From assembly GCA_017526785.1 (NCBI GenBank), contig JAFXQV010000015.1:62001-126000 (forward strand): a DNA stretch of 64,000 bases, read 5' to 3'. Of this stretch, positions 280-14,928 are shown piece after piece. Each line of letters begins with the position of its first letter. Positions within the stretch are counted from its first letter, which is position 1. The position numbers and the translations under genes were made by a program. Below the pieces are notes generated by a model. The model ran no database searches. It saw only the letters and a program-made list of their open reading frames with translations, and was not told where the DNA came from. The DNA is from Oscillibacter sp. (GTDB taxonomy: Bacteria; Bacillota; Clostridia; Oscillospirales; Oscillospiraceae).

Positions 280-589
280 ACGAAAATCCGCCTCCTTTCG
301 CCGGACTATTTTATCACAGTTTCCGCGTTTGGGAAAGATAAAATTGTAAATTTTTCCGGTTTTTTCCGGCTTATGACTGAAAAAATTATGGAGGAATTGT
401 GCGGAAATGATTGCAATTTCCAAAACTGTTTGATATAATGTCACCTGTCCGGAGGGGCGGACAGCGCTGGAAAAATATCCCTGTAACCGTTTTTCCATCT
501 CCGGAACCTCTCCAAAATTCTGGACAGGACTCCCAATGCCGCCCGCGCGGCGGCTGAAACATCACAACGCGGGAAAGGAGGAACATGTA
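280..589. other. Divergent intergenic region, no gene seen
   Basis: Between the partial dehydrogenase gene and the cohesin-SLH gene. It holds a promoter for the plus-strand surface operon (411-439) and a long 5' leader. The leader contains one short hairpin (CTGTCCG/CGGACAG, 445-464) and a second possible stem (GGAAAAA/TTTTTCC, about 469-496). It matches no riboswitch class I know. No convincing promoter for the minus-strand gene was found. Confidence 0.5.
411..439 (+). promoter_or_regulatory. Promoter of the surface-protein operon
   Basis: TTGCAA (411-416), 17-bp spacer, TATAAT (434-439). Transcription would begin near 446, leaving a leader of about 145 nt before the TTG start at 590. Confidence 0.7.
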
Positions 590-1867
590 TTGAAAAAACG
601 ATTCCCCGCGCTGATACTGTCGCTTACGCTTCTGTTCTGCGTGACGGCGTACGCCGCCGAACCGTGTTTCGTGGTACACCTGCCGGAGAAACCCGTTGAG
701 GCCGGGGAGGATTTCACGGTGACCGTCGACTTGACCGGAAACCCGGGCATTCGCGGCATACGCTTTGCCCTCTCGTTCGACCGGAAGCGCATGGAGTGCG
801 CGGGCATGAAAATCGGAACCTTGCTCGCGACACAGGAAACGGTAAATTCCGTCAATCCCGACGCGAAATCCGGCGCGATGTTGGCGGCGGTGGCGACGGA
901 TATCATAGAAGGGGACGGACAGGTAGCCGTGTACCATTTCCGGGCGAAGGAAAAGCTCTCGGACTTTCACTTTTCGCTGGAGAAAATCGACCTCGGAAAC
1001 CAGAGCCGGGAAAACATTGACGTAATTGTGACGGGCGGCGGCACCGATACCGCAAGCCGTGACGACGACAAACCGGACACCGATACCGCAAGCGGCAAAC
1101 CGGACACTGACACCGCAAGCGTCAAATCTGGCACCGACACCGCAAGCGTCAAATCTGGCACCGACACCGCAAGCCGTGACGACGACAAACCGGACACCGA
1201 CGCCGCAAGCGTCAAATCTGGCACCGATACCGCAAGCGCCAAACCGGACACCGACGCCGCAAGTGGAAAATCCGAAACTTCCGCGGCCGTCAGCGGCGGC
1301 GACGCCCAGCCCCTCTTTACCGATATCGCCGGAACGTGGGCGGAAAGCTATATCCGCGCGGCCGCCGAACAGAACCTTTTTCAAGGTTACCCGGACGGCA
1401 CATTTCGCCCCGATAATCACTTGACCCGGGTGCAGTTCATGATGGTGCTTTGGAATCTGGCGGGGCGTCCCGCCGTGCCGGACGAGACCCCGTTCAAGGA
1501 CATGGGTGGGCAGATTCAGAACTTCCGCCACGCCGTCGCGTGGGCGTACGCCAAGGGCTATGTCAACGGCACCTCGCCCGACACCTTCTCCCCCGGCGAA
1601 CCCCTCACCCGGCAGGCCACCGTAAAGATTCTATTCGCCTACAACGGTTCCGCGCGCGGCACGGAAGTCATGATAACCAGCGTCTACGACGACATTTTCT
1701 CCGACAGCGGGCGTATCTCCGCGTGGGCGAAAGACGCCATGTACTGGGCGGTCTATCAGAAAATCATCTCCGGCACCAGCCCTTCCACACTCGAACCCGG
1801 CGGCACCGTCACCAGAGCGCAACTCGCCGCCATGATGGTTCGCTACGTGGAGCGGTTCCCACGATGA
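590..1867 (+). CDS. Cohesin-like domain plus three SLH domains, surface anchor protein
   Basis: Secreted 425-residue protein. I chose the TTG at 590 because GGAGG (577-581) sits 8 nt upstream and the translation then opens with a textbook signal peptide (KKRFPALILSLTLLFCVTAYA). An in-frame ATG at 536 would put untypical sequence before the signal peptide. Residues about 24-147 form a beta-rich domain with the cohesin pattern (VEAGEDFTVTVDLTGNPGIR, then FALSFDRKRM). Residues about 148-235 are a repetitive, charged DTAS linker. Three SLH domains follow (about 241-295, 302-355, 365-424), each with the G-[YT]-x-DGTF-P or NGTSPDTFSP signature and TR-Q motif. SLH domains fix proteins non-covalently to pyruvylated cell wall polymer, so this looks like a cell-wall anchor offering a cohesin. 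First gene of a three-gene operon; 34 nt to the dockerin gene. The cohesin assignment is by pattern and less certain than the SLH one. Confidence 0.8.
   Translation: MKKRFPALILSLTLLFCVTAYAAEPCFVVHLPEKPVEAGEDFTVTVDLTGNPGIRGIRFALSFDRKRMECAGMKIGTLLATQETVNSVNPDAKSGAMLAAVATDIIEGDGQVAVYHFRAKEKLSDFHFSLEKIDLGNQSRENIDVIVTGGGTDTASRDDDKPDTDTASGKPDTDTASVKSGTDTASVKSGTDTASRDDDKPDTDAASVKSGTDTASAKPDTDAASGKSETSAAVSGGDAQPLFTDIAGTWAESYIRAAAEQNLFQGYPDGTFRPDNHLTRVQFMMVLWNLAGRPAVPDETPFKDMGGQIQNFRHAVAWAYAKGYVNGTSPDTFSPGEPLTRQATVKILFAYNGSARGTEVMITSVYDDIFSDSGRISAWAKDAMYWAVYQKIISGTSPSTLEPGGTVTRAQLAAMMVRYVERFPR
1041..1273 (+). repeat. Tandem linker repeats in the cohesin-SLH gene
   Basis: About nine degenerate in-frame units of 24-30 bp encode variants of DTASVKSG, DTASRDDDKP and DTDAASGK. 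The copies 'accgacaccgcaagcgtcaa' near 1133 and 1160 are nearly identical at DNA level, so unit number could change by slippage or recombination. Confidence 0.85.
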
Positions 1868-1901
1868 TTGTCACCTTTACTTTTCATAAGGAGGGATTAC
1901 T

Positions 1902-2630
1902 TTGAAAAAAAGTTTCATGCAACTGGCTTTGATTCTCGGCCTTATGACGCTGGCTTGTGTCACGGCGTGGGCGGCCGAATCAGACCCGGAAGCGGAACCC
2001 ACTTTCGGGTTCATGAATATCAAAGCGGAATCCAGTTTCGTAACATTGACCGCGCTGGACGACAGCGAGCAGTCAGTCACGGCTTCCACTGAGGACGAGG
2101 CCATGTTCCCCGGTGCCGTCAAAATCGGCGTGACCTGCACGAATATGCAGAGCGGAAAAGAATATCTGCTCATTGTCCAGAGCGGCGACAACAACACCCC
2201 CAATGTCGACGATATGGTATTCATCGACCAGAAAGCCCCCACGAGTGACGGCACCCAGACGAATTTCTTCGTCATCTACCCCAAAAAGCCAAGCCCCACG
2301 GCGGAAAGCGTCCAGTATACCGTCTACATGTCCAGCAACGCCGACACCAGCACGGGTATCACGCAATACGAAAAGGTCGGCTCCTTTGAATACTACTCGA
2401 CCGCGCCGGATGTCCTGCTCGGCGACGTGGACGGCAACGGAAGTGTTACGATTGCGGACGTTTCGCTGCTCTTGGACGCACTCAATGAAAAGGAGACACT
2501 CGACGACAAACAGACCGCCGCCGCCGACGTGGACGGGAACGGAGTCCCTGCAATCGCCGACGTTGGGAGCCTTCTGGACTTCCTCAATGGCAAGATTGCG
2601 TCCTTTGAAGAACTGCGCAACCAGTCCTAA
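1902..2630 (+). CDS. Secreted dockerin type I protein
   Basis: 242 residues starting at TTG 1902 behind AAGGAGGG (1888-1895). A signal peptide (KKSFMQLALILGLMTLACVT, cut near AWA-AE) precedes a region of about 150 residues that I do not recognise (about 25-175). The C-terminus carries two dockerin calcium-loop repeats: GDVDGNGSVTIADVSLLLDA and ADVDGNGVPAIADVGSLLDF, each with the D-x-D-x-[NG]-G calcium ligands and the following helix. Type I dockerins bind cohesins, and the gene lies 34 nt behind a cohesin-SLH gene and 29 nt before the giant SLH gene. The obvious inference is that this protein docks onto the neighbouring anchor. No catalytic domain is visible, so its job once docked is unknown. 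Confidence 0.85.
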   Translation: MKKSFMQLALILGLMTLACVTAWAAESDPEAEPTFGFMNIKAESSFVTLTALDDSEQSVTASTEDEAMFPGAVKIGVTCTNMQSGKEYLLIVQSGDNNTPNVDDMVFIDQKAPTSDGTQTNFFVIYPKKPSPTAESVQYTVYMSSNADTSTGITQYEKVGSFEYYSTAPDVLLGDVDGNGSVTIADVSLLLDALNEKETLDDKQTAAADVDGNGVPAIADVGSLLDFLNGKIASFEELRNQS

Positions 2631-2659
2631 GAGACTGTTAAGGAGGTATCAACTTCACA

Positions 2660-5600
2660 ATGCAAAAAGTAAAACGGCTGTTGTCCGTGTTCCTCGTGCT
2701 GGCCATGCTGCTTGGCATGATGTCCCTGCCGGCGGACGCGGCGGACAGCGGCTATAAGCTGGCAATTCTGAAAGTACAGATATTCGAGGGTGACACATTC
2801 GACCCCGATACCGCGACGGAAATTCAGGAGACTGACCATGTAAACGCCGGGGACGTTGTAGTTCTGACGGTTGGCTTTGAAAATACCAGCGGTTCCACGG
2901 TGTCGGTTGGCGGCTTCCAGTCGAAAGTCTTTTATGACACGGATAAAATCAGCGTGTTTACAGGGAAGCGCCCATTTCTAAGAAATCCGTTCCAGAACTC
3001 TCAGGAACTGCTCGACGCTGAAGGACTGTACGCGTGGAATATGGCGGGCGACGGCGACCCCGCTAAGGACTTTGTTTCCACGAACGGCGTCGGCGATGCG
3101 TATAATTTGGCGAATGGCGAGCAACTGATTTTCTCCCGCTACGCCTTTCAGGTCAAGGACGACGCCGGAGACGCGGATGTTTATTTCCGCTTTGACGCCG
3201 ACGCGGGCGACGTGATTGACAACAGCCGAAAATCGCTCCCTTTGGAGGACTACGAACCCCGGAGACTGATTATCGGGAATGGTTCCGGCGACACAGACGA
3301 ATTCACCGTGACCGTATCCCCGGAGAGTGACGAAGTGACCATCCCGGCGGAAGGGGCAGACCCCGCAGAAAAGACCTTTACCGCCGAAGTCAAGGACAAG
3401 GACGGAAACGCCGTCGAAAACCCGGAGGTGAAGTGGAGCATTGCCCCGAAGGAAGACATAGACAATGTCACGGGCATAACGACCAGCGAAACAGACGGTA
3501 CATTGACCGTTAGCGTGGCGTCGGACGCCACCGCCGGGGAGTATACCGTTACGGCGACTGTCGGCGAGAGTACCGGAACCGCGACTTTGACCGTCAAGGA
3601 GAGCGAGACCCCGCCGCCGGGCGACTTCACAGTGACGCTCGACCCGGCCGAATTGGACGTGCCGTCGACAGGCGAAGCCACCGCGACCGCCACGGCCGAG
3701 GGCGTGGACGGCGCGACGTGGAGCATTACGCCGACGGCCACGGGCGTGGACATTGACCCGGAAAGCGGTGTCGTCACCGTGACCTCTGCGGCCTCTGCGG
3801 GTACGTTCACCGTCACGGCGACCGTCGGCGAGGGCGACGACGCCCAGACAGGCTCCGCGACGCTGACCGTCAAGAAGAGCGAGACCCCGCCGGGCGATTT
3901 CACAGTGACGCTCAACCCGTCTGAATTGGACGTGCCGTCGACAGGCGAAGCCACCGCGACCGCCACGGCCGAGGGCGTGTCCGGCGTGACGTGGAGCATT
4001 GCGCCGACGGCCACGGGCGTGAGCATTGACCCGGAAAGCGGTATCGTCACCGTGACCTCTGCGGCCTCTGCGGGTACGTTTACCGTCACGGCGACGGCTT
4101 CCGACGACACGACAGGCTCCGCGACGCTGACCGTCAAGAAGAGCGAGACCCCGCCGGGCGATTTCACAGTGACGCTCAACCCGTCTGAATTGGACGTGCC
4201 GTCGACAGGCGAAGCCACCGCGACCGCCACGGCGAGCGTAGACGGCGTGACATGGAGCATTACGCCGGATAACGCTACAGGCGTGAGTATTGACCCGGCA
4301 AGCGGTATCGTCACCGTGACGCCGGAGGCCGCCGCCGGGAGATTCACCGTCACGGCGACAAGCGCCGACGACAAGACAGGTACCGCGACACTGACCGTCA
4401 AGAAGGAAGTCGACGATTCCGGCATTACGTTCACCCCGCAAAAGACCGCCTATCCGCTTGGAACAGAGACCTACTTCAAGGCGTCCAGCAATGTTCCGAA
4501 CGCGATATGGTACCTTGAAGACAAAGACGGCCATTCGGTCAACCCGGACGAGATATCCATAAACCCCCAGACGGGCGAAGTCAGGATAACGCCGCAGGCG
4601 AAAGCCGGAACGTATTACACGGTGGCGCTCGTCAACGGCCAGCAACTCGGAAAGAAGGCCTTTACGATATCCGCAGACGCGGAGGACGCGCAAATGACCG
4701 TCACCGTGGATAAGTCCAGCATTCAGATTCCCGGCGTCACGGACGACGCGTCCTCCGAAGACTTCAAAGCGTATTTCACAGCCACGGACAAAAATAAAAA
4801 GCCTATCAGCAACGACGACTTAAGATGGAGTGTCGAGGTGCTGAACCCGCCCCCCGAGACGCTGAACTCCAACAGCGTGGAGTGGTTCAAGGACACAGCG
4901 CAGGACGGCAGGCTTATTCTGACGGTGAAGCCGGGCGCCAAGGACGAAATCGCCAACGATATCCTTGCGGGTTCCCCCGTTTACGGTACGACGCTCCTTG
5001 TCACCGCAACAAATTTCAAGGCCGAAGATTCCCCTTCCGCCTCCGCTACCATTGTTATCCGCCGCGCCGACCCCGTGCTGACCACGGTCACGCTGAGTCC
5101 GGATACCGTGACGTTAAGCGGAGAGAACCAGACCGTAACGGCCGCCGCCTTTGACCAGTACGGCGAATTTCTGGCCAGTACCGACACGGAACCCATTACA
5201 TGGTCAATCCAGCCTTCCACCAGTAGCGCCGTCACGATTGACCCGGCCACGGGTACGGTCACAGTGCGCTACAACGCCACCCCCGAAACGTACACCGTGC
5301 AGGCCACGCGCACCGTAAAAGGCACCACGCAGCCCGCCAGCGCGGAATTGAAAATTTCGCAGGAAGCCGAGAGGGCGGAATCCATCGCCCTGCTCAACGG
5401 GCCGACACAAATGGAAGTCCCCGGCAAGGGCGACGACATCAACAACAACGCGGAAAATCCGTTTGTTGCGCAGGTACTCAACCAGCACGGCAGCACCATG
5501 TCCGATTCGGACGTGCAGTGGAGTATCACGGACAGTTCCGGCGCTGAATGCCCCGGTATCACCATTCAGGGCGGCGTGGTTTCCATAACCTACGAGGCCA

Positions 5601-8600
5601 AGAGCGTTGTCCCGGCGGGCGCACACCCGATTTTCCGGGTAACGGCCAAGTCCGGGGACGTGCAGCAGTCCAGAGACCTGTATATTGTCCGCTCCGCGCC
5701 CTACCTCAACGACCTGAGTTTGAGCAAGGAACAAATCGACATCAACGGCGAACACGGCGGAGAGGCGCAGTGTATCGCGCTCGACCAGTACGAGGAGCCG
5801 TTCAGCGGTGACGTAACGTGGTCTGTCGCGCCGTATGGCGGTATCAGCGGCAGCGGCGGCGTGACGGTCGACGCCAGCGGGCTTATCACCGTCTCCAAGG
5901 ACGCCACCCCGGGTCCGTACAACGTGTACGCCAACTCCAGCGTGGGGCCGAAAACGCTGCTGGTCTCCCGGGAATCCTCCTACACCAATGCAATCGTGAT
6001 TTCCACCAAGGAAGACATCGTTGTGACCATTCCGCCCGACGGGCAGGAGACAGCGGAAACCCGGCATTTCAGCGCCACCGTGTATGACCAGTTCGGCGAG
6101 CCCATATCCAATCAGCCCGCCGTCACATGGACGATTACCGACGCCGCAGAGGGCGGCACGACCGTGCAGGGCATCACCATTGACAGCAACGGCGTTGTCA
6201 GCGTGGCCAACGAGGCCAAGGCGCAGGTCGGCTCTTCCCCGAACTTCAAAGAGATGTACGTCCACGCCTCCAGCGGTTCCAGCGCCGCGACTCCCTTCAA
6301 GCTCATCATCATGCGGCAGTCCCCGGAACTCAGCAAGGTGCGTCTGGACAACACCGACTCCCCCGACGCCAACGGACAGCGTTTCTCCGTGGACTACACC
6401 GACGGCGAAACGAAGCGTATCACGGCGAGCGCGCTTGACCAGTACGGCAGCGCATTCTCCGGGGCTTCTTGGGATATCGAGTCGGATACCGACGAAATCG
6501 GCGTCAGCATTGATTCCAGCGGCGTGATTACGATTTCCCGTGGCGCTGTCAGCGCCGCCTATACCGTGGTTGCCTCCGCTGGCGGAAAGAGGGTCTCCGC
6601 GCCGTTCGTCATCAGAAAGACCTCAAGCTCCGCTTCCTCCATCAGCAGAGTTGTCGTCGACCCGGCGAGCGTGACCGTCAGTAACAGCAGTACGGCGCTT
6701 TCGCAGGCCACCGCCTACGACGGCAACGACAACCCCATTACGGTCGGGATTCTCTGGTCTGTCTTCCCGTCCGGCGCGGGCGTCGGCATTGCCAGAGACG
6801 GCAAGATTACCATCTCCTCCAACGCCTCCTCGCGGCCGTACGTCATCACCGCCACACCGGACACCACCTTCGGCATAGTATCCGGCAACCCGCAGTCCGC
6901 CGACCTGATTGTGCAGAACATTTCGGCGGCCGTCGGCGAACTCGACCACGTCGCGCTGACGAAATCCAGCGTCACGGTCGACGGCACCGCGAGTGAAACG
7001 TCCGTCGCGCGCGCTCTCGATAGGGACAATAACGACGTGAGCGGCGTAACGTGGGCGATTTCCCCCGCCAATGGTGGCGTGAGCATTGACAGCAACGGCA
7101 CGATTCACATCTTCAAGAGCGCCACGCCCGGGGACTACACCATCACCGCCACGAAAGGCGCTGTCAGCAAAGAAAGCAAGCTGACCGTTTCCAATGAAAC
7201 TCCCCCTCCCGTCGTGAGCTTCCAAGTCACCCTGACGCCGGACACGGTCATAGCGGACGGCGTAAGCCCCGCTTCCGCGACCGCCAGCGCTGCGGACGCC
7301 TCGAACCAGCCCCTTTCCGGCGTCACATGGAGCCTCTCCCCCCAAGGGCAGGGCGTGAGCATTGACGCCGCCAGCGGCGCTATCACCGTGGCCGCGAGCG
7401 CCGTACTGGGAGAGTACACCGTCACGGCCTCCACGGAAACCGGAACGCAGTCCAAAACTTTGTACGTCATCGAAAAGGGGTCGGAGACGACGCAATCTCT
7501 GACGGGCGTCAGCCTGAACCCGGCGGCGGTCACGCTGGACGGCACGAACGCGCAGACCGTCACGGCCACCGCGCAGGGAACCGCGACAGACGGCGTTACA
7601 TGGACAGTCTCCCCCGTGGGCGCGGGCGTCACACTCAACAGTAACAGCGGCGCGAGTGTCCAGATTACCGTCGCCGCCGACACCAAGCCCGGCACGTACG
7701 GCGTCACGGCCGCACTCGGCGACACTACCAGAAGCGCGACTTTAACGGTCACGGTTCCGGCGGAATCGTTCCTTTCCAGCGTGAAAGTATTCCCCGCGTC
7801 GGTGGAGGTCAACGGCACGGAGAGCAAAACCGCCGACGCGAACGCGTTGACCAGTACGAATGAGAGTATCACCAGCGGCGTAACGTGGAGTGTCTCGCCC
7901 CTCGGGAACGGCGTCACCGTGGACGCGGTTACCGGAAAAGTGACCGTGGACAAAGCCGCCATGAGCGGGGACTACCAAATCATCGCCACGAGGGACACGG
8001 AAACCCGCTCCGATACCCTGAAAGTCACGAACATGGTCACGACCGCGAAATTGACCAGTGTCGCGCTGACCCCGGCCGCCGTCGAACTCAACGGCAGGGA
8101 CGCGGCCTCCTCCACGGCCACGGCCATTGGTTCGGGCAACACGACCCTGACCACGGGCGTCACATGGACGGTCACGCCCACCGATGGCGGCGTCACGATT
8201 GACACCAGCGGCAAAATTACGATTCTGGCAACCGCCGTCAGCGGCGAGTACCTCATCAGCGCCCATTACCAGTCGGCGGTCGCCTCCGCGACGCTGACCG
8301 TGGCCAGTTACGCGGATATCGTCTACGAGGAAAAGGCCGTCGACAAGACCGCCGTCGCCAATACGGCGCTCGCGTCGGTCAACTACGCCGATACCGGCGT
8401 GAAGTCCGTGGAACATCAGGCCAGCATGATGAGCGCCGCGCTTGCCAAGGACGACGTGAAAAAGGCCGTCTCCGAGCAGACCGCCGACACCAAAACGGAA
8501 GTCGTCGTCTCCGTGGACATCCAATTGCAGAGCTACGACCCCGACAAGCCGTCCATGAAACTGTCCGTCACGCCGCGCTACGACATTGTCAAGACGGCCA

Positions 8601-9970
8601 ACGGGCAGACGACCACCACACCCGGCGGCACATTGAGCGAACTGCCCGAGGCGGTCAAGGTCACACTGAACGTCCCCGCCAGTTTTGACGCCACTTTCGC
8701 CAAGCACACGCACAACAACACCACCTATCTGGAACCCATTACCTACACTGGAAGCGGCTCCGAACGCGTCGCGGGCTGGACGCAGAAGTATTTCAGCGAC
8801 GTGGAACTGACCAAGGACGTGGTAACGATTAAGTTTGACGCCCAAGGCGGCATTGCAATCGCTGACAGGTCTATTGCCAAGGGCGGCACGCTCTCGACGC
8901 TTCCCGCGACTTCCCGCAGCGGCTACAATTTCAGCGGCTGGTTCCTGAACAATACGCAAGTCACGACCTCGACCACATTTGACCAAGATTCGACGCTCGT
9001 CGCGCAGTGGACGGTCGCCAGCAATGGCGGCGGAGGCGGCGGCGGAGGAGGCGGTTCTTCCTCCGGCGGCAGTTCGTCCAGCAGTTCCTCTTCCAGCACC
9101 TACAGAGTCACCACGTCCGCCGGAACCGGAGGCACTCTGACCGCCAGCGACAAGAGACCCAAGGCCGAGGACATCGTTACCCTTACCCCCACGCCAAGGA
9201 GCGGCTATGAACTCGACACGATTTCCGTCGTGACGACCTCCGGCAAGAAGGAAGTCGCCCTCACCGAGAACAACGGAACCTATACGTTTGAAATGCCGAA
9301 AGGCAACGTCACGGCCAAGGCGACGTTCAAAAGAGCCACCGCCCAACCCGCCAACACCAACAGCGGCGACACCGGGGACATCAACCCCACGCCGTACGAC
9401 CCCACGCCCGTGAACCCCACGCCGTCCTACACGTCCGTGTCGTTCGTGGACATGCAGCCGGACAACTTCTTCTACACGGCCGTGCAGTGGGCGGTAGAGC
9501 GCGGTATCACCAACGGCACCACGGCGACGACGTTCTCCCCGAATCAGGCCTGCACACGCGCCCAAATGGTCATGTTCCTGTGGCGCTCTCAGGGAATGCC
9601 CATGCCGTCGAACTATAACAGCCCCTTCGTGGACGTTGACCCCAGCGCCAACTACTACACGGCCATGATGTGGGCGGTAGAGCGCGGTATCACAAACGGC
9701 ACCACGCCCACGACCTTTGACCCGTACGCGGCCTGCACGCGCGCCCAAATGGTCATGTTCCTGAACCGCGTCGCGGGACGCCCCCGCCCCACACAATGGT
9801 CTTGCCCGTTCACGGACATCACCGTAGGCGAAAACTACTATGAGCCGATGTTGTGGGCTTTGGAGAAGGGTATCACCAACGGCACGACCGCGACCACGTT
9901 CTCTCCGTATCAGGCCTGCACGCGCGCCCAAATGGTTATGTTCCTCTACCGCTATCTCGGCGGGAACTGA
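2660..9970 (+). CDS. Giant surface protein: Ig-like (BIG2-type) repeats, Flg_new-type repeat, three SLH domains
   Basis: 2436 residues, ATG at 2660 behind AAGGAGGT. The signal peptide ends near PADA-AD (about 27). Residues about 30-205 form a beta-rich N-terminal domain, possibly a divergent cohesin fold (VNAGDVVVLTVGFENTSGS). From about 214 to 1887 run roughly sixteen Ig-like units of 85-110 residues with the recurrent signature V-TWS(I/V)xP...GV(S/T)ID...GxITV...GxYTVTA, typical of BIG2-like adhesins. Next come an uncharacterised region, an InlB B-repeat/Flg_new-like unit (KFDAQGG...GYNFSGWF), a Gly then Ser tract (about 2122-2147), a second small beta repeat, a Pro/Thr linker, and three SLH domains (from about 2257, 2322 and 2383) sharing WAVERGITNGTT and ACTRAQMVMFL. 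It is expected to stand out from the wall as a rod-like adhesin or S-layer-associated protein. Last gene of the operon, closed by a strong terminator. Confidence 0.9.
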   Translation: MQKVKRLLSVFLVLAMLLGMMSLPADAADSGYKLAILKVQIFEGDTFDPDTATEIQETDHVNAGDVVVLTVGFENTSGSTVSVGGFQSKVFYDTDKISVFTGKRPFLRNPFQNSQELLDAEGLYAWNMAGDGDPAKDFVSTNGVGDAYNLANGEQLIFSRYAFQVKDDAGDADVYFRFDADAGDVIDNSRKSLPLEDYEPRRLIIGNGSGDTDEFTVTVSPESDEVTIPAEGADPAEKTFTAEVKDKDGNAVENPEVKWSIAPKEDIDNVTGITTSETDGTLTVSVASDATAGEYTVTATVGESTGTATLTVKESETPPPGDFTVTLDPAELDVPSTGEATATATAEGVDGATWSITPTATGVDIDPESGVVTVTSAASAGTFTVTATVGEGDDAQTGSATLTVKKSETPPGDFTVTLNPSELDVPSTGEATATATAEGVSGVTWSIAPTATGVSIDPESGIVTVTSAASAGTFTVTATASDDTTGSATLTVKKSETPPGDFTVTLNPSELDVPSTGEATATATASVDGVTWSITPDNATGVSIDPASGIVTVTPEAAAGRFTVTATSADDKTGTATLTVKKEVDDSGITFTPQKTAYPLGTETYFKASSNVPNAIWYLEDKDGHSVNPDEISINPQTGEVRITPQAKAGTYYTVALVNGQQLGKKAFTISADAEDAQMTVTVDKSSIQIPGVTDDASSEDFKAYFTATDKNKKPISNDDLRWSVEVLNPPPETLNSNSVEWFKDTAQDGRLILTVKPGAKDEIANDILAGSPVYGTTLLVTATNFKAEDSPSASATIVIRRADPVLTTVTLSPDTVTLSGENQTVTAAAFDQYGEFLASTDTEPITWSIQPSTSSAVTIDPATGTVTVRYNATPETYTVQATRTVKGTTQPASAELKISQEAERAESIALLNGPTQMEVPGKGDDINNNAENPFVAQVLNQHGSTMSDSDVQWSITDSSGAECPGITIQGGVVSITYEAKSVVPAGAHPIFRVTAKSGDVQQSRDLYIVRSAPYLNDLSLSKEQIDINGEHGGEAQCIALDQYEEPFSGDVTWSVAPYGGISGSGGVTVDASGLITVSKDATPGPYNVYANSSVGPKTLLVSRESSYTNAIVISTKEDIVVTIPPDGQETAETRHFSATVYDQFGEPISNQPAVTWTITDAAEGGTTVQGITIDSNGVVSVANEAKAQVGSSPNFKEMYVHASSGSSAATPFKLIIMRQSPELSKVRLDNTDSPDANGQRFSVDYTDGETKRITASALDQYGSAFSGASWDIESDTDEIGVSIDSSGVITISRGAVSAAYTVVASAGGKRVSAPFVIRKTSSSASSISRVVVDPASVTVSNSSTALSQATAYDGNDNPITVGILWSVFPSGAGVGIARDGKITISSNASSRPYVITATPDTTFGIVSGNPQSADLIVQNISAAVGELDHVALTKSSVTVDGTASETSVARALDRDNNDVSGVTWAISPANGGVSIDSNGTIHIFKSATPGDYTITATKGAVSKESKLTVSNETPPPVVSFQVTLTPDTVIADGVSPASATASAADASNQPLSGVTWSLSPQGQGVSIDAASGAITVAASAVLGEYTVTASTETGTQSKTLYVIEKGSETTQSLTGVSLNPAAVTLDGTNAQTVTATAQGTATDGVTWTVSPVGAGVTLNSNSGASVQITVAADTKPGTYGVTAALGDTTRSATLTVTVPAESFLSSVKVFPASVEVNGTESKTADANALTSTNESITSGVTWSVSPLGNGVTVDAVTGKVTVDKAAMSGDYQIIATRDTETRSDTLKVTNMVTTAKLTSVALTPAAVELNGRDAASSTATAIGSGNTTLTTGVTWTVTPTDGGVTIDTSGKITILATAVSGEYLISAHYQSAVASATLTVASYADIVYEEKAVDKTAVANTALASVNYADTGVKSVEHQASMMSAALAKDDVKKAVSEQTADTKTEVVVSVDIQLQSYDPDKPSMKLSVTPRYDIVKTANGQTTTTPGGTLSELPEAVKVTLNVPASFDATFAKHTHNNTTYLEPITYTGSGSERVAGWTQKYFSDVELTKDVVTIKFDAQGGIAIADRSIAKGGTLSTLPATSRSGYNFSGWFLNNTQVTTSTTFDQDSTLVAQWTVASNGGGGGGGGGGSSSGGSSSSSSSSSTYRVTTSAGTGGTLTASDKRPKAEDIVTLTPTPRSGYELDTISVVTTSGKKEVALTENNGTYTFEMPKGNVTAKATFKRATAQPANTNSGDTGDINPTPYDPTPVNPTPSYTSVSFVDMQPDNFFYTAVQWAVERGITNGTTATTFSPNQACTRAQMVMFLWRSQGMPMPSNYNSPFVDVDPSANYYTAMMWAVERGITNGTTPTTFDPYAACTRAQMVMFLNRVAGRPRPTQWSCPFTDITVGENYYEPMLWALEKGITNGTTATTFSPYQACTRAQMVMFLYRYLGGN
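3621..4407 (+). repeat. Three near-identical tandem Ig-domain units at DNA level
   Basis: Three direct repeats of about 250-273 bp (3621-3893, 3894-4157, 4158-4407) share long identical runs, such as 'gacgtgccgtcgacaggcga' in each unit. The later Ig units in the gene are similar only as protein. This points to recent unit amplification and to a locus likely to vary in length. Confidence 0.85.
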
Positions 9971-9986
9971 CACCCAACTAAAAACA

Positions 9987-10014
9987 CTCCCCCGGAAACG
10001 GGGGAGCGTTTTTT
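9987..10014 (+). terminator. Terminator of the surface operon
   Basis: Perfect 7-bp stem CTCCCCC/GGGGGAG with loop GGAAAC, followed within 2 nt by a T6 run. Intrinsic terminator 16 nt after the stop codon. Confidence 0.9.
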
Positions 10015-10258
10015 ACGCCGTCCCTACAGAAAAAGGGCGGCAAAAATATTAAAATCTGTAAAAAGTTGCAATTATATATATTTTTTAACGTTTTCCAAAT
10101 GATTATATATGTCAAAAGTTTAAAATCCCCCCCCCCGAAAATTTTACTTGCTTTCCATTTTTGCCTATGGTATAATGAAAAAACATAAAAATTTCTGTTG
10201 AGGCCTCCCGCTTTCGCCGGATTGATTTCCGTGGAATGTGCAAAGGATGTGATTTCGC
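10015..10258. other. AT-rich intergenic region upstream of the permease-kinase
   Basis: Markedly AT-rich compared with its surroundings, with no gene visible. It contains a run of ten cytosines (10127-10136) eleven bases upstream of a near-consensus promoter (10148-10176) and then a 5' leader of about 77 nt. Confidence 0.6.
10148..10176 (+). promoter_or_regulatory. Promoter of the permease-kinase gene
   Basis: TTGCTT (10148-10153), 17-bp spacer, TATAAT (10171-10176) with the TGG extended -10 triplet directly before it. Confidence 0.85.
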
Positions 10259-13210
10259 GTGGATGCTTCCAATCATACGACCGTCGCAAAAAATGAGGAG
10301 GGGCATCTGCTCCGATGCCTCTCGCCGTTGAACGTCTGGGCGCTGTCGTTCGGGTGCGCGGTCGGCTGGGGCGCGTTCGTCATGCCCGGCACGACCTTTC
10401 TGCCGATTGCCGGCCCCGCCGGAACCGCCCTCGGCATGCTTATCGGCGGCGCGATTATGCTCATCATCGGCGTCAACTACCACTACATGATGAGGCGCTA
10501 CCCCGACGCGGGCGGCACGTTCACATATACCAAAAAGACCTTCGGCTATGACCACGGCTTCCTGAGCGCGTGGTTTCTGGTACTCGTCTACATCGCCATC
10601 ACATGGGCGAACGCGACGGCCTTGCCGCTGGTGTTCCGCAACCTCTTCGGCGGGGTGTTTCAGGTGGGCTTCCACTACCAGATTGCCGGTTACGACGTGT
10701 ACTTTGGGGAGGTCATACTGTCTTTGGCGGCGCTGGAACTGTCCGGCTTGGCCTGCATGCGGGGCGGCAGGTTCGCGGCGCGGATACAGACCATCATGGC
10801 CTGTGTCCTGTTCGGCGGAATCCTGATAGGCGGCGGCGCGGTGGCCGTCCGGCATTTCGGCTGTTTTCTACAAGGCAGTCTCACCCACTTCAAGCCCGCC
10901 TTCGCGCCGGGTCACAATCCGGCGGCGGAGGTGTTCAACATCGTGGCGCTCGCGCCGTGGGCGTTCGTGGGGTTCGAGTCGGTGTCGCACTCGGCGGAGG
11001 AGTTCAATTTCTCGCCGAAAAAGTCCTTTTCGGTTCTGGTGGCGGCGGTCATAACGGGCGTGCTTGCCTACACGGTTCTGTCTGCGCTTGCGGTATCCGT
11101 CCTCCCGGCGGGTTACAGCCACTGGGACGCGTACATCGCCGATATCGGCAAGTTCAGCGGCCTGAAAGGCCTGCCGACGTTCCACGCCGTCCGCGAACTC
11201 ATGGGCGGCACGGGTCTGATGATACTGTTTTTCACGATTCTGGCGGCCGTGATTACGGGTCTGGTCGGCAACTCCATCGCCGCAAGCCGCCTGATTTACT
11301 CCATGGCGCGGGACAACCTGCTCCCGGCGTGGTTCGCCAAGCTCAATAAAAATAAGGCTCCCGAAAACGCGATTCTCTTTGTCATGGCGATTTCCATTCC
11401 GATTCCCTTTTTTGGCCGCACCGCCATTGGCTGGATTGTCGACGTAAACACCATCGGCGCGACTGTCGCCTACGCCTACACCTCCGCCGTCGCCTACAAG
11501 GTCGCCAAGGATAACGGCAATCTCGCCGTGCAGTTCACGGGCATGATTGGCATTGTTACGTCCCTGCTGTTTTTCCTCTACTTCCTCGTGCCGAACTTCT
11601 GGACGGTCAGCGCACTGACCACGGAATCTTATCTGATTCTGGTCGCGTGGAGCGTGGCCGGGTTCGTGTTCTTCCGCTACATCTTCCAGCGCGACACAGA
11701 ACAGCGTTTCGGGAAGTCGACCATTGTCTGGCTTACGCTTCTGTTTTTGATTCTGTTCATTTCCACACTCTGGGTACGCGAGGCCATGCAGGACACTATG
11801 CGTACGGTTCTCAACAATCTGAGCGACTACAACTATCAGGAACTGGGCGAACACGGCATATCCCTGTCGCCGACGGAGCAGAAAGACACCGCTTTCTACA
11901 TCCAAAGCCAGATGAACAGCGTCAGCAACTCCCTCCTGAAAAACAGCGTGGCGCAAATGGCACTCATCGCCGTGTCTCTCTATATCATGTTCCACCTCTA
12001 CACCCTCATGCAGAAGCGGGAAAAGGACATGGAGGTGCAGAAAATTCAGGCCGAACAGAGCAACCGCGCCAAAAGTACCTTCCTATCCAACATGAGCCAC
12101 GATATCCGAACGCCCATGAACGCCATTATCGGCTACACCACGCTGTCACAGAAAGAGCCGGGCATTCCCCCGCGCGTCTCCGACTACCTCAAAAAAATTG
12201 ACGCGTCCAGTCATCACCTGCTGGCGCTCATCAACGACGTGTTGGAGATGAGCCGCATTGAGAGCGGCAAAATGGAACTCGAACCCGTCAAAAATAACAT
12301 CGTGCAGGGCATGGACGATGTGCGCGACCTGTTCGCCACGCAGATGGAGACAAAACGCCTGACCTACACCGTCACGGCGGACAACGTGGAAAATCAATGG
12401 GTTCTGTGCGACATGAACCGCCTGAACCGCGTTCTGCTGAACCTCATCAGCAACGCCTACAAGTTCACGCCCGAGGGCGGGAGCGTCTCCGTCTCGCTGA
12501 CGCAGACGGGCGCGGCCAACGGTATCGCCTCTTACGAAATCCGCGTGCGTGACACCGGAATGGGCATGAGCCCGGAATTCGCCGCGAAAGTATTCGAAGC
12601 CTACGAGCGCGAACGTACGACCGCCGTCGACCACATCCAAGGCACCGGTTTGGGCATGTCCATTACCAAAAGCATCGTTGACCTGATGGGCGGTACGATT
12701 GACGTGGAGACCCAAAAGGGCAAAGGCACCGAATTTATCATTCAGGTCAGCTTCCCGATTGTCGAGGACGCCGGGGAGGACGCCGGGAGCGCGCAGGACG
12801 GCGAAGCGTCCGACGCCGACATTGATTTCAGCAAGGTCAAAGTCCTGCTCGTCGAGGACAACGAAATCAACCGCGAAATTGCTACCATTGTCTTGGAAGA
12901 AGCCGGATTCCAGTTAGACACCGCCGAAAACGGAAAAATTGCTGTGGACAAAATCGCGGCGTCCCGTCCCGGCGATTACCAAGTCATTTTGATGGACGTG
13001 CAAATGCCCGTCATGAACGGCTATGAGGCGACCAAGGCAATCCGCAAGCTCTCCAACCCCGGCCTCTCCGACATCCCCATTGTCGCCATGACCGCCAACG
13101 CGTTTTCGGAAGACATTCAGGCCGCCAAGGACGCCGGAATGGACAGCCATATCTCCAAACCGATTGACGTTCCGCAAATGCTGGCCACGTTAAAAGAAAT
13201 CCTCCGCTGA
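10259..13210 (+). CDS. Amino acid permease fused to hybrid histidine kinase with receiver domain
   Basis: 983 residues; GTG start at 10259 with AAAGGATG upstream. Residues about 15-480 are an APC-superfamily permease: a dozen hydrophobic segments opening with LNVWALSFGCAVGWGAFVMP, and the family's proline/glycine-rich first helix. A further membrane segment follows, then a short loop of about 85 residues that is probably extracytoplasmic, and a last helix (about 566-585). Then come a HisKA domain with phospho-acceptor His near 613 (SNMSHDIRTPMNAIIGY), a HATPase_c domain (LLNLISNAYKFTPEGG; G boxes DTGMGMS and GTGLGMS) and a C-terminal receiver (VLLVEDNEINRE; phospho-acceptor Asp near 912 in LMDVQMPVMNGYEA). 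All catalytic motifs are intact. The layout recalls CbrA, where an SLC5 transporter is fused to a kinase, but here the transporter is APC type. Inferred role: amino acid uptake or sensing coupled to phosphorelay. No separate DNA-binding regulator lies next to it; the next gene is a rhodanese 23 nt on. Confidence 0.9.
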   Translation: MDASNHTTVAKNEEGHLLRCLSPLNVWALSFGCAVGWGAFVMPGTTFLPIAGPAGTALGMLIGGAIMLIIGVNYHYMMRRYPDAGGTFTYTKKTFGYDHGFLSAWFLVLVYIAITWANATALPLVFRNLFGGVFQVGFHYQIAGYDVYFGEVILSLAALELSGLACMRGGRFAARIQTIMACVLFGGILIGGGAVAVRHFGCFLQGSLTHFKPAFAPGHNPAAEVFNIVALAPWAFVGFESVSHSAEEFNFSPKKSFSVLVAAVITGVLAYTVLSALAVSVLPAGYSHWDAYIADIGKFSGLKGLPTFHAVRELMGGTGLMILFFTILAAVITGLVGNSIAASRLIYSMARDNLLPAWFAKLNKNKAPENAILFVMAISIPIPFFGRTAIGWIVDVNTIGATVAYAYTSAVAYKVAKDNGNLAVQFTGMIGIVTSLLFFLYFLVPNFWTVSALTTESYLILVAWSVAGFVFFRYIFQRDTEQRFGKSTIVWLTLLFLILFISTLWVREAMQDTMRTVLNNLSDYNYQELGEHGISLSPTEQKDTAFYIQSQMNSVSNSLLKNSVAQMALIAVSLYIMFHLYTLMQKREKDMEVQKIQAEQSNRAKSTFLSNMSHDIRTPMNAIIGYTTLSQKEPGIPPRVSDYLKKIDASSHHLLALINDVLEMSRIESGKMELEPVKNNIVQGMDDVRDLFATQMETKRLTYTVTADNVENQWVLCDMNRLNRVLLNLISNAYKFTPEGGSVSVSLTQTGAANGIASYEIRVRDTGMGMSPEFAAKVFEAYERERTTAVDHIQGTGLGMSITKSIVDLMGGTIDVETQKGKGTEFIIQVSFPIVEDAGEDAGSAQDGEASDADIDFSKVKVLLVEDNEINREIATIVLEEAGFQLDTAENGKIAVDKIAASRPGDYQVILMDVQMPVMNGYEATKAIRKLSNPGLSDIPIVAMTANAFSEDIQAAKDAGMDSHISKPIDVPQMLATLKEILR

Positions 13211-13233
13211 CGGTGAAAGGGCGTGCGCGAATC

Positions 13234-13641
13234 ATGAAGGGTATCTGGACAAAGGTTATTATGGCGGCCGGCGTGGTTGTGTCGCTTGTGGCGCTCTTTT
13301 TCATGTTCGGCGGCGGGCAGCGCTACAAGTCACTCACGCCGAACGAGGCCGCGAAAATCATGGAAAGCGACCGTGGCTGTGTTGTTCTGGATGTCCGCAC
13401 ACAGACCGAGTACGGAGACGGCCACATCCCCGGCGCGGTCTGCCTCCCCATTGACGATATCCGCGAAAACGCGGCGTCGGTACAGGCCACCTTACCGGAC
13501 AAACATCAGGTCTTGCTCATCTACTGCTACACCGGACGCCGCGCCGTCGAGGCCGCGCAACTCCTCTCCGCCATGGGCTACACGAACGCCTATGAATTCG
13601 GCGGTATCGTGGACTGGACGGGCGAAGTCGTCACAGATTAA
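13234..13641 (+). CDS. Membrane-anchored rhodanese-like protein
   Basis: 135 residues from ATG 13234. A GTG at 13213 is in frame, but the ATG start opens directly into a transmembrane anchor (VIMAAGVVVSLVALFFMF). Residues about 32-132 are a single rhodanese domain: VVLDVRTQTEYGDGHIPGA is the family's D-x-R...GHIPGA signature, and the active loop CYTGRR carries the catalytic cysteine. Rhodaneses carry persulfide sulfur; this one should face outward on the membrane. It follows the permease-kinase by 23 nt and is probably co-transcribed with it, for a reason the sequence does not reveal. Confidence 0.9.
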   Translation: MKGIWTKVIMAAGVVVSLVALFFMFGGGQRYKSLTPNEAAKIMESDRGCVVLDVRTQTEYGDGHIPGAVCLPIDDIRENAASVQATLPDKHQVLLIYCYTGRRAVEAAQLLSAMGYTNAYEFGGIVDWTGEVVTD

Positions 13642-13646
13642 AGGAA

Positions 13647-13676
13647 GCCGCCCCTCTCCCGCGGGAGAAGGGCGGC
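13647..13676. terminator. Shared hairpin between convergent rhodanese and pfp genes
   Basis: Long inverted repeat GCCGCCC...CTCCCGCGGGAG...GGGCGGC located between two convergent stop codons. No strong T-run on either side, so a bidirectional terminator is likely but not certain. Confidence 0.6.
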
Positions 13677-13689
13677 CGTTCTGTGGAGA

Positions 13690-14928
13690 TTATTTCGCCA
13701 GAACCTTTTTCAGGCGGGCGAAGCGCGGCAGGGAATCCTCTTTCGGGAGGTCGGGTTCGCCCTGAATCAGCGGCAGGGCGTAGTCGATGAATCCCTGTTC
13801 AATGCCGTTGTGGTCGGCGTTAATCCACTCCAGCGGCACTTTCTTCTCGGTGTTGGCGACGTCGGTCAGGTTCAGGAGCTTGGGCTTGCAGGTGTACACG
13901 CCGCCGTCACGCGTACACTCGAAGCCCACCATCTTGTCTGTCATGCCCGCGACGGCGTTCTTGACCGCCTCCGCGCCGGACATGTACGACTCTTCAATGT
14001 CGCGCTTGGAGGCCAAATGCGCGCCGCAGCGCTGTAACAGGCTAAGCTCAATGCCGCGCACTTTCGCGCCCGTACGCTCTTTGACGACGTTCGCCAGCAT
14101 GGCGGCCAGTCCGCCCAGTTGCGCGTGGCCGAAGCCGTCGGTTGCGGACGTTTTCGCCTCGGAGACAAAGGAGCCGTCGGCATAGTGTACGCCCTCGGAG
14201 ACAGCCACCATGCAGTTTTTGTTAGCGGCGTAAACGCGGTCAACGTCGGCGAGGAACTTGTCCATGTCGAAGTCGACTTCCGGCAGGTAAATCAGGTCGG
14301 GACCCGCGCCCTTGTACGTGGCCAGCGCGGAGGCGGCGGTCAGCCATCCGGCGTGACGCCCCATGATTTCCACCACGGCGACAAGACCCGTGTCGTACAC
14401 GCGGGCGTCCTTGTAGACTTCCATGCAGGACGTTGCAATATACTTGGCGGCGGAGGCGAAGCCCGGGCAGTGGTCAGTGCCGAACAGGTCATTGTCAATC
14501 GTCTTGGGAACGCCCATCACGCGGCACTCGTAGCCGACTTTCTGCATATACTTGGAAATCTTATTGCAGGTGTCCATGGAGTCGTTGCCGCCGTTGTAGA
14601 AGAAGTAGCGGACATCGTACTTTTTGAAGATTTCCAGAATGCGCTTGTAGTCGGTGTCGTCCTTGTCGGGGTCGGCGATTTTGTAGCGGCAGGAGCCGAG
14701 CGCCGAGGAAGGAGTGTACTTGAGCAGTTCGAGTTCCTTGGGGTCCTCCTCGCCCATGTCAAACAGGCGGTCATTCAGGACGCCCTTAATACCGTGTTCC
14801 GCGCCGAAAACGCGGGTGATGTTGGGGTCCTTGAGCGCCGCGTCAATGACGCCGTACGCGCTGGCGTTAATGACGGACGTGGGGCCGCCGGACTGGCCGA
14901 TGATACAGGCACCTTTCAGTGTACTCAT
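13690..14928 (-). CDS. pfp: Diphosphate-fructose-6-phosphate 1-phosphotransferase (PPi-PFK)
   Basis: 412 residues, ATG 14928 behind GAGGAGGCG. Interconverts fructose 6-phosphate and fructose 1,6-bisphosphate, with pyrophosphate rather than ATP as the likely phosphoryl donor. The substrate-discriminating motif reads GGNDSMDT where ATP-dependent enzymes have GGDGS, and the PKTIDND and GRHAGWLTA motifs are present. These features and the length fit the PPi-dependent clade. The gene is divergent from fba, whose product acts on the next metabolite, with back-to-back promoters between them. Confidence 0.9.
   Translation of the reverse strand: MSTLKGACIIGQSGGPTSVINASAYGVIDAALKDPNITRVFGAEHGIKGVLNDRLFDMGEEDPKELELLKYTPSSALGSCRYKIADPDKDDTDYKRILEIFKKYDVRYFFYNGGNDSMDTCNKISKYMQKVGYECRVMGVPKTIDNDLFGTDHCPGFASAAKYIATSCMEVYKDARVYDTGLVAVVEIMGRHAGWLTAASALATYKGAGPDLIYLPEVDFDMDKFLADVDRVYAANKNCMVAVSEGVHYADGSFVSEAKTSATDGFGHAQLGGLAAMLANVVKERTGAKVRGIELSLLQRCGAHLASKRDIEESYMSGAEAVKNAVAGMTDKMVGFECTRDGGVYTCKPKLLNLTDVANTEKKVPLEWINADHNGIEQGFIDYALPLIQGEPDLPKEDSLPRFARLKKVLAK

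Follow-up and report, generated by a model that had tools for sequence, protein, structure and literature searches.

A conserved cohesin–dockerin operon of Oscillospirales that may display a small domain on a wall-anchored rod

What might a bacterium do with cohesins, a dockerin and wall anchors that are encoded side by side with no enzyme among them? The question is raised by three secreted-protein genes that lie in a row on the plus strand at 590–9970 of the window, by which we mean the whole stretch of 64,000 nt that was analysed and on which all coordinates of parts are given. Open reading frames and Pfam matches gave the following layout:

411 to 439, plus strand: sigma-70-like promoter candidate upstream of P1 (TTGCAA, 17 nt, TATAAT, extended TG; 10 of 12 matches, consensus only)
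590 to 1867, plus strand: P1, 425 aa, TTG start; secreted cohesin, repetitive D-T-A-S linker and three SLH domains
1902 to 2630, plus strand: P2, 242 aa, TTG start; secreted X-dockerin protein
2660 to 9970, plus strand: P3, 2436 aa, ATG start; giant secreted rod
9987 to 10006, plus strand: terminator-like hairpin with a T-run just after P3 (consensus match only)

The genes are separated by 34 bp (P1–P2) and 29 bp (P2–P3), and each is preceded by an AGGAGG-type ribosome site; these sites and the signal peptides of the three proteins were judged by eye. The layout bears out the preliminary description of this DNA, which had placed three secreted proteins in one tight operon. The promoter and terminator candidates are suggestive by position only, because the consensus scan found such sites in shuffled sequence as well (6 promoter-like sites in the region against 2.6 in shuffles, and 11 terminator-like sites against 13.5). 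Directly after the terminator-like hairpin, 10259–13210 on the plus strand encodes a protein of 983 aa in which an amino-acid permease (PF13520) is fused to a hybrid histidine kinase (HisKA, HATPase, receiver). About 4.6 kb before the window begins, the same contig encodes a 923-aa LRR-Roc-COR (ROCO-type) GTPase protein (L011, 140–2911, minus strand).

Within the three proteins, the domains are arranged as follows:

680 to 964, plus strand: cohesin domain of P1 (Pfam PF00963, 33.4 bits, 35.7 bits in the genome search; cut-off 24.1)
1316 to 1828 (1316–1438, 1529–1615, 1697–1828), plus strand: SLH triplet of P1, wall anchor (Pfam, converted from contig C28 coordinates)
1977 to 2411, plus strand: X domain of P2 (no Pfam, NCBIfam, PHROG or convincing PDB match)
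2418 to 2600, plus strand: type I dockerin of P2 with two calcium-loop repeats, DVDGNGSVTIAD and DVDGNGVPAIAD (Dockerin_1, Pfam)
2738 to 3304, plus strand: N-terminal cohesin-like domain of P3, at the end away from the C-terminal SLH anchor (weak alone, clear for the family profile)
3332 to 8230, limits approximate, plus strand: Ig-like repeats of P3 (Pfam Big_1; ad hoc repeat-signature pattern)
8825 to 9337, plus strand: InlB-type B-repeat domains of P3 (Pfam PF09479 and PF18998)
9467 to 9934, plus strand: SLH triplet of P3, wall anchor (Pfam, converted from contig C28 coordinates)

The preliminary description had read P1 as a cohesin joined to SLH domains and P2 as a two-repeat dockerin protein without a catalytic domain, and both readings stand. 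P1 carries its cohesin above the Pfam cut-off and three SLH stretches scoring 113.5 bits, so that cohesin and SLH occur on a single secreted protein, as in an SLH-anchoring scaffoldin. The Pfam cohesin is retained in 28 of 36 P1 family members, and P1 too must therefore matter. In P2, the dockerin (PF00404) scored 30.9 bits against a cut-off of 22.9; its second repeat lies beyond the Pfam match and both calcium loops were read by eye, while Pfam assigned nothing to the N-terminal part.

P3 had been described as a 2436-residue rod with its own SLH anchor. Big_1 matches, the InlB-type repeats and three SLH stretches (96.6 bits) agree with this, and an ad hoc pattern recognised a repeat signature 10 times in residues 453–1856. 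What had been missed is the cohesin-like domain at its N-terminus. In the window protein alone the match is weak: residues ~27–215 reached 19.0 bits with Pfam Cohesin PF00963, below the 24.1 cut-off, and at E ≤ 5 the six-member clade profile of this P3 matched a single PDB entry, a cohesin (E 0.019). For the family the assignment appears clear. Half of the N-terminal family members (15/30) matched the Pfam cohesin at E ≤ 0.1, and the first 27 PDB matches of the 30-member profile were entries for scaffoldins or cohesins, of which two carry the label endoglucanase, with a best E of 3.3e-10. A 16-member profile from which the more canonical members, chosen by eye, had been left out still found PDB cohesins (best E 3.1e-5).

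The cohesins of P1 and P3 are not close to each other in the window. BLAST of the window P1 against the window P3 showed no similarity, and the clade profile of the window P3 matched the P1 cohesins with an hhalign probability of only 4.6% once signal peptides were removed; a value of 99.0% for P3 N-termini against P1 cohesins was discounted as inflated by the signal peptides. At one other locus, L110, the N-terminal domains of P1 and P3 are 65% identical over 186 aa.

The genome that holds the window was then read for further cohesins and dockerins (assembly of 2.34 Mb in 38 contigs, 94.6% complete). Pfam gave six cohesin matches at E ≤ 0.001. At E ≤ 0.01 there were eight, with the P3 N-terminus and its counterpart in locus C as the additional two. 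They fall in three loci, the operon of the window being locus A. At locus B (C27, L009) the SLH protein lacks a cohesin; the locus also encodes an X-dockerin protein and a protein, cut by the contig end, that combines two cohesins with InlB repeats. At locus C (C5, L010) the dockerin of the X protein is degenerate, and the other products are a cohesin-like protein of 738 aa that ends in a CFI box, and subtilases. These subtilases form a row (L010, 9266–12745, minus strand, and neighbours), one of which ends in DUF285 and three cohesins and is thus an enzyme bearing cohesins instead of a dockerin.

Pfam found two dockerins at E ≤ 1 in this genome, in loci A and B. Both are on small X-dockerin proteins, which does not look like a cellulosome; the third, degenerate dockerin, in locus C, is likewise on an X protein. 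Neither dockerin-bearing carbohydrate-active enzymes, as a cellulosome would have, nor any other enzyme with a detectable dockerin was found at this threshold in the 94.6% complete assembly, and the proteins with two (locus B, cut by the contig end) or three cohesins (the locus C subtilase) have no enzyme dockerin to fill them. This supports the earlier proposal of a non-cellulosomal device without glycoside hydrolases.

The arrangement recurs in other Oscillospirales, where a search for the three-gene order had been suggested. Three X-dockerin queries from the same genome had matches in 32 of 150 genomes of the family, mostly to dockerins of other proteins; a P2-like gene was present at five loci, and P1 lay upstream in all five. 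Among 394 genomes of the order, a P1 query found nine orthologs at E < 1e-90, and a query with X alone matched nine genomes strongly and four more weakly (E 1e-7 to 1e-5); the nine with strong X matches are the nine with P1 orthologs. A P1 scan of a named genome collection returned 63 loci, 32 of them P1 orthologs and 31 other SLH loci. A separate X gene adjoins 30 of the 32 orthologs (in L109 X is fused, and L114 ends at a contig end) and none of the 31 other SLH loci. The genome titles are mostly those of goat, sheep and other ruminant MAGs, with one isolate, Oscillibacter sp. MSJ-31 (L101), in which P1 lies at 6919–8028, P2 at 8064–8738 and P3 at 8751–14285 of the locus.

After removal of duplicate contigs, 34 P2-family loci remained, some cut by contig ends. 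In 32 of them P2 directly follows P1 and is itself directly followed by a gene for a further secreted protein; L010, without P1, and L112, without P3, depart from this order. Between P2 and P3, an LRR_5-dockerin gene is inserted in L106 and L115 and a cohesin-dockerin gene in L044. The LRR_5 proteins, which lie inside or beside the operon, are of the BspA type, and their dockerins have a recognition motif in common with P2.

The dockerins of the P2 family show a pronounced internal symmetry. We took as recognition motif the three residues before the last calcium ligand in each repeat of 33 P2 dockerins, eight of the motifs being assigned by eye. The motif is identical in both repeats of 21 of the 33, as against 6 of 1056 cross-pairs, and in 20000 shuffles the number 21 was never reached, the highest being 6. 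At the same time the motifs vary widely between species (28 distinct in 33 dockerins). Across 32 P2 proteins the excess symmetry between repeats is high at positions -3 to -1, +2, +6 and +8 to +11, and low at +3, +4, +7 and most calcium ligands; the high positions are presumably those that contact the cohesin. Three pairs of motifs occur in the genome of the window, TIA/AIA, KSW/KSW and TGN/TGN, and the first, that of the window P2, is not fully symmetric, being equal at two of three positions. A two-fold internal symmetry of recognition residues is associated with the dual-binding mode of dockerins (PMC8063739), and the pattern in the P2 family fits what a dual-binding dockerin should show when a changing cohesin keeps it under selection. 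The P2 dockerin looks functional, because a variable recognition motif is identical in both repeats of so many P2 proteins.

Which cohesin would take this dockerin? The preliminary description had suggested pairing it with the cohesin of P1, perhaps alongside P3 as an adhesin rod. We compared distances by partial Mantel tests controlled for the distances of the P1 SLH part, with alignments of 10–50% identity from related MAGs. Distances among dockerins followed those among P3 N-terminal domains (partial r 0.34 for 32 loci and 0.33 for 30 loci, p 0.0002), and further runs gave 0.32, 0.37 and, without five relatives of the window, 0.43. A second alignment mode returned identical numbers and is no independent check. 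Against the P1 cohesin the values in the larger sets were -0.14, -0.09 and -0.09, the last with p 0.82 (30–32 loci), and as a control the dockerin against the SLH part of P3 gave -0.10 (p 0.82, 16 loci). The nearest neighbour of a dockerin has a median rank of 2 of 31 in the P3 domain and of 6 in the P1 SLH part. These correlations are modest. Two loci, B and L081, have a P1 that lacks a cohesin and a P2 that still bears its dockerin, and the cohesin of their P3 is at Pfam level. Because of the co-divergence and of these two loci, P3 is more likely the receptor of the dockerin than an adhesin rod alongside, and the P1–P2 pairing as first put is not supported.

We therefore do not favour, and consider unlikely, the reading in which a P2 docked on the P1 cohesin displays X near the wall, while P3 is an independent adhesin of the same operon. 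It has several points to its credit: the P1 cohesin is the better-scoring one (33.4 bits) and widely kept, the P1 gene directly adjoins P2, two genomes (G526 and G532) have a Pfam-level cohesin on P1 only, and a 16-locus subset gave 0.21 (p 0.034) for dockerin against P1 cohesin. At L110, where P1 carries the domain of P3, the same dockerin could bind both. Against it weigh the larger sets, in which the dockerin tracks the cohesin of P3 and not that of P1, and the dockerins that are kept beside cohesin-free P1 proteins.

We propose that P2 docks on the tip of P3, where it presents X, and that P1 is a second receptor, the whole forming a conserved enzyme-free cohesin–dockerin surface assembly in gut bacteria of the Oscillospiraceae type; we give this reading a probability of about 0.45. 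P3 would be a long rod with its C-terminal SLH domains in the cell wall and its cohesin at the N-terminal, outer tip. P2, secreted separately, would plug its dockerin with calcium into the tip cohesin, possibly in two orientations, the dockerin being nearly two-fold symmetric, and X would then be displayed at the outer tip. P1 would be a short SLH-anchored cohesin and a second, wall-proximal receptor, which would take either P2 or a different dockerin protein. Domains, their order and conservation, repeat symmetry, co-divergence, fusions and joint absence are read from the sequences; from them we infer binding, its calcium dependence, the occupied cohesin, the geometry of the tip and the target of X.

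The nature of X was approached through its relatives. The best PDB match was a stretch of CmeB (E 0.011), with no PHROG and no NCBIfam family, so that X was not assigned to a known fold. A relation to cohesin found no support (hhalign probability 0.8%). The best PDB match of the whole P2 profile, the serine protease entry 8x39, covers the dockerin part only, and a literature search found no publication tying 8x39 to “dockerin”. The Kre9/KNH Ig-like family was touched by 4 of 35 X members (best E 0.00073), which gives a hint of an Ig-like fold. We propose that X is a payload rather than an enzyme.

In two lineages X is fused directly to SLH domains, in the order SLH then X in L109 and L094 and in the opposite order in L232 (genome G500). 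SLH is the only Pfam match in these three fusions, with no Pfam dockerin or cohesin (in L094 this refers to the first gene); it is also the only Pfam family in P1 of L112 and in L114, and P2 of L112 has none. X thus appears to be what stays at the wall whether a cohesin–dockerin link is present or not, and for this reason it is probably not merely a stabiliser of the dockerin. The display of the N-terminal domain of the dockerin protein, which had been suggested earlier, becomes plausible because X also occurs fused directly to SLH anchors. In genomes of family f19 (L227–L230), distant X-like domains are followed by dockerin-like repeats, and in L229 and L230 a cohesin-like gene, recognised by eye, comes next.

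The distances of X were also compared with those of the two cohesins. Controlled for P1 SLH, X against the P1 cohesin gave 0.27, 0.29 and 0.21 (p 0.0014, 0.001 and 0.014), the last in the run with corrected trimming of the window sequences, and X against the P3 cohesin gave 0.20 (p 0.0017). X correlates equally with both, and therefore no partner is singled out; a specific pairing of X with the P1 cohesin was weakened by the corrected value and the equal P3 correlation, and was kept as a rival. In that rival P2 would be a bridge, with its dockerin on the P3 cohesin and X on P1 or on P1-like anchors of a neighbouring cell, giving a calcium-dependent cross-linked layer. The correlation with the P1 cohesin, the fusion of X to cohesin-free SLH anchors and the presence of X and P1 in the same nine genomes would fit such a bridge. 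The equal correlation with P3 speaks against it, as does the retention of X in locus B and L081, where P1 is cohesin-free, and we consider it improbable. A broader version, which we put forward as a speculation and regard as rather unlikely, is a private, calcium-dependent, enzyme-free net: P2 would connect anchored proteins of one cell or of two neighbours, its dockerin holding the P3 tip and its X domain holding P1 or some other anchored partner, as an S-layer cross-link or a cell–cell linker with one insulated specificity per locus.

Returning to the docking of P2 on the P3 tip, we asked which dockerins and cohesins accompany the operon in other genomes. At Pfam E ≤ 0.01, 29 of 32 genomes had a dockerin and 30 a cohesin. 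The two cohesin-free genomes, G528 and G531, are two of the three that are dockerin-free; in G522, the remaining one, the P2 dockerin is degenerate. G528 has X fused to an SLH anchor (L109), whereas in G531 P1 has SLH only and P2 has X only (L112). By gene neighbourhood these two are related to each other and to G520, and their joint absence counts as about one event because they are related MAGs that may be incomplete.

A sample of the dockerin matches in these genomes, 33 proteins outside the operon, was scanned for other domains. GH43 occurred on five and GH3 on one, all from G526 and G532, where the sole Pfam-level cohesin is that of P1; others had LRR_5 (4), subtilase (4), M14 peptidase (2), cohesin (5) or SLH (4). 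By eye, the recognition residues of these dockerins differ from those of P2, but the LRR and adaptor dockerins encoded within the operon have the P2 residues, and the cohesin–dockerin pair of the operon thus looks private. Secreted single chains with both cohesin and dockerin occur in L179 and L183 (G131, G523), and one of them has two dockerins and an M14 peptidase. The dockerins of these chains finish with a sequence of the YLA-H/G-W type, unlike that of P2, and the chains perhaps self-assemble. Dockerin matches in open frames of ~9000 aa were seen in G080:C42 and G500:C12.

A small cellulosome-like device, with P1 and P3 serving as scaffoldins to which dockerin enzymes attach and P2 as an adaptor or plug, could draw on the GH43 and GH3 dockerin proteins of two operon genomes with a P1-only cohesin, and on the LRR_5-dockerin genes and the cohesin-dockerin adaptor inside operons. 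Neither Pfam dockerin of the window's own genome is on an enzyme, though, the glycoside hydrolase dockerins come from those two genomes alone among the 33 sampled proteins, and their recognition residues are unlike those of P2, which makes this reading quite improbable. Very improbable is a dockerin that is a relic or a calcium-stabilised tail, with X only a dockerin-stabilising X module: X modules of that kind are known (PMC4266597), and P2 dockerins are degenerate and without a Pfam match in L100 and L010 and missing in L112, but the strong repeat symmetry at variable recognition positions, the tracking of the P3 cohesin and the dockerin-free X fused to SLH argue against it.

To our knowledge, cohesin–dockerin pairs have been studied almost wholly as holders of enzymes. 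This operon apparently mounts a small X domain on a wall-anchored rod instead. Its parts are of known kinds; new to us are their enzyme-free combination, its conservation and the cohesin at the tip of a rod. A conserved enzyme-free set in common ruminant-gut bacteria and in the isolate MSJ-31 makes other uses of cohesin and dockerin directly testable. The P2 family is also a ready set of dockerins, with 28 motifs, many of them perfectly symmetric, that would be useful for asking how specificity changes while a dual interface stays.

The literature searches showed no account of the operon; the survey of Peer et al. 2009, reportedly of non-cellulosomal cohesin and dockerin modules, lay outside that search. 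Like the modules reportedly covered there, the operon has cohesins and dockerins outside cellulosomes, and single members of its family may already be listed in that survey. P2 recalls the X module–dockerin dyads, one of which is borne by C. thermocellum CipA. Another is that of R. flavefaciens CttA, with X modules known to stabilise dockerins (PMC4266597). P2 shares with the dyads secretion and a domain directly N-terminal to the dockerin; it differs in that X and dockerin are the entire protein, in that X has no sequence match to solved structures, and in that the X of this family is also found dockerin-free and fused to SLH anchors. P1 resembles the SLH-anchoring scaffoldins of cellulosomes of the Acetivibrio type, secreted proteins in which cohesin is joined to SLH domains (PMC11557425). 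P1 differs from them: it has a single cohesin, its genome has no primary scaffoldin, carbohydrate-binding module or enzyme dockerin, and the gene adjoins those for a free X-dockerin protein and a cohesin-tipped rod. Similar in setting are the secreted glycoside hydrolases with cohesin (X82) and dockerin of Clostridium perfringens and the Limousia mucinolysome (PMC12997984), which, like the operon, are cohesin–dockerin systems of gut bacteria beyond cellulose degradation. Their partners are glycoside hydrolases and peptidases, whereas the operon is enzyme-free and has another anchoring architecture.
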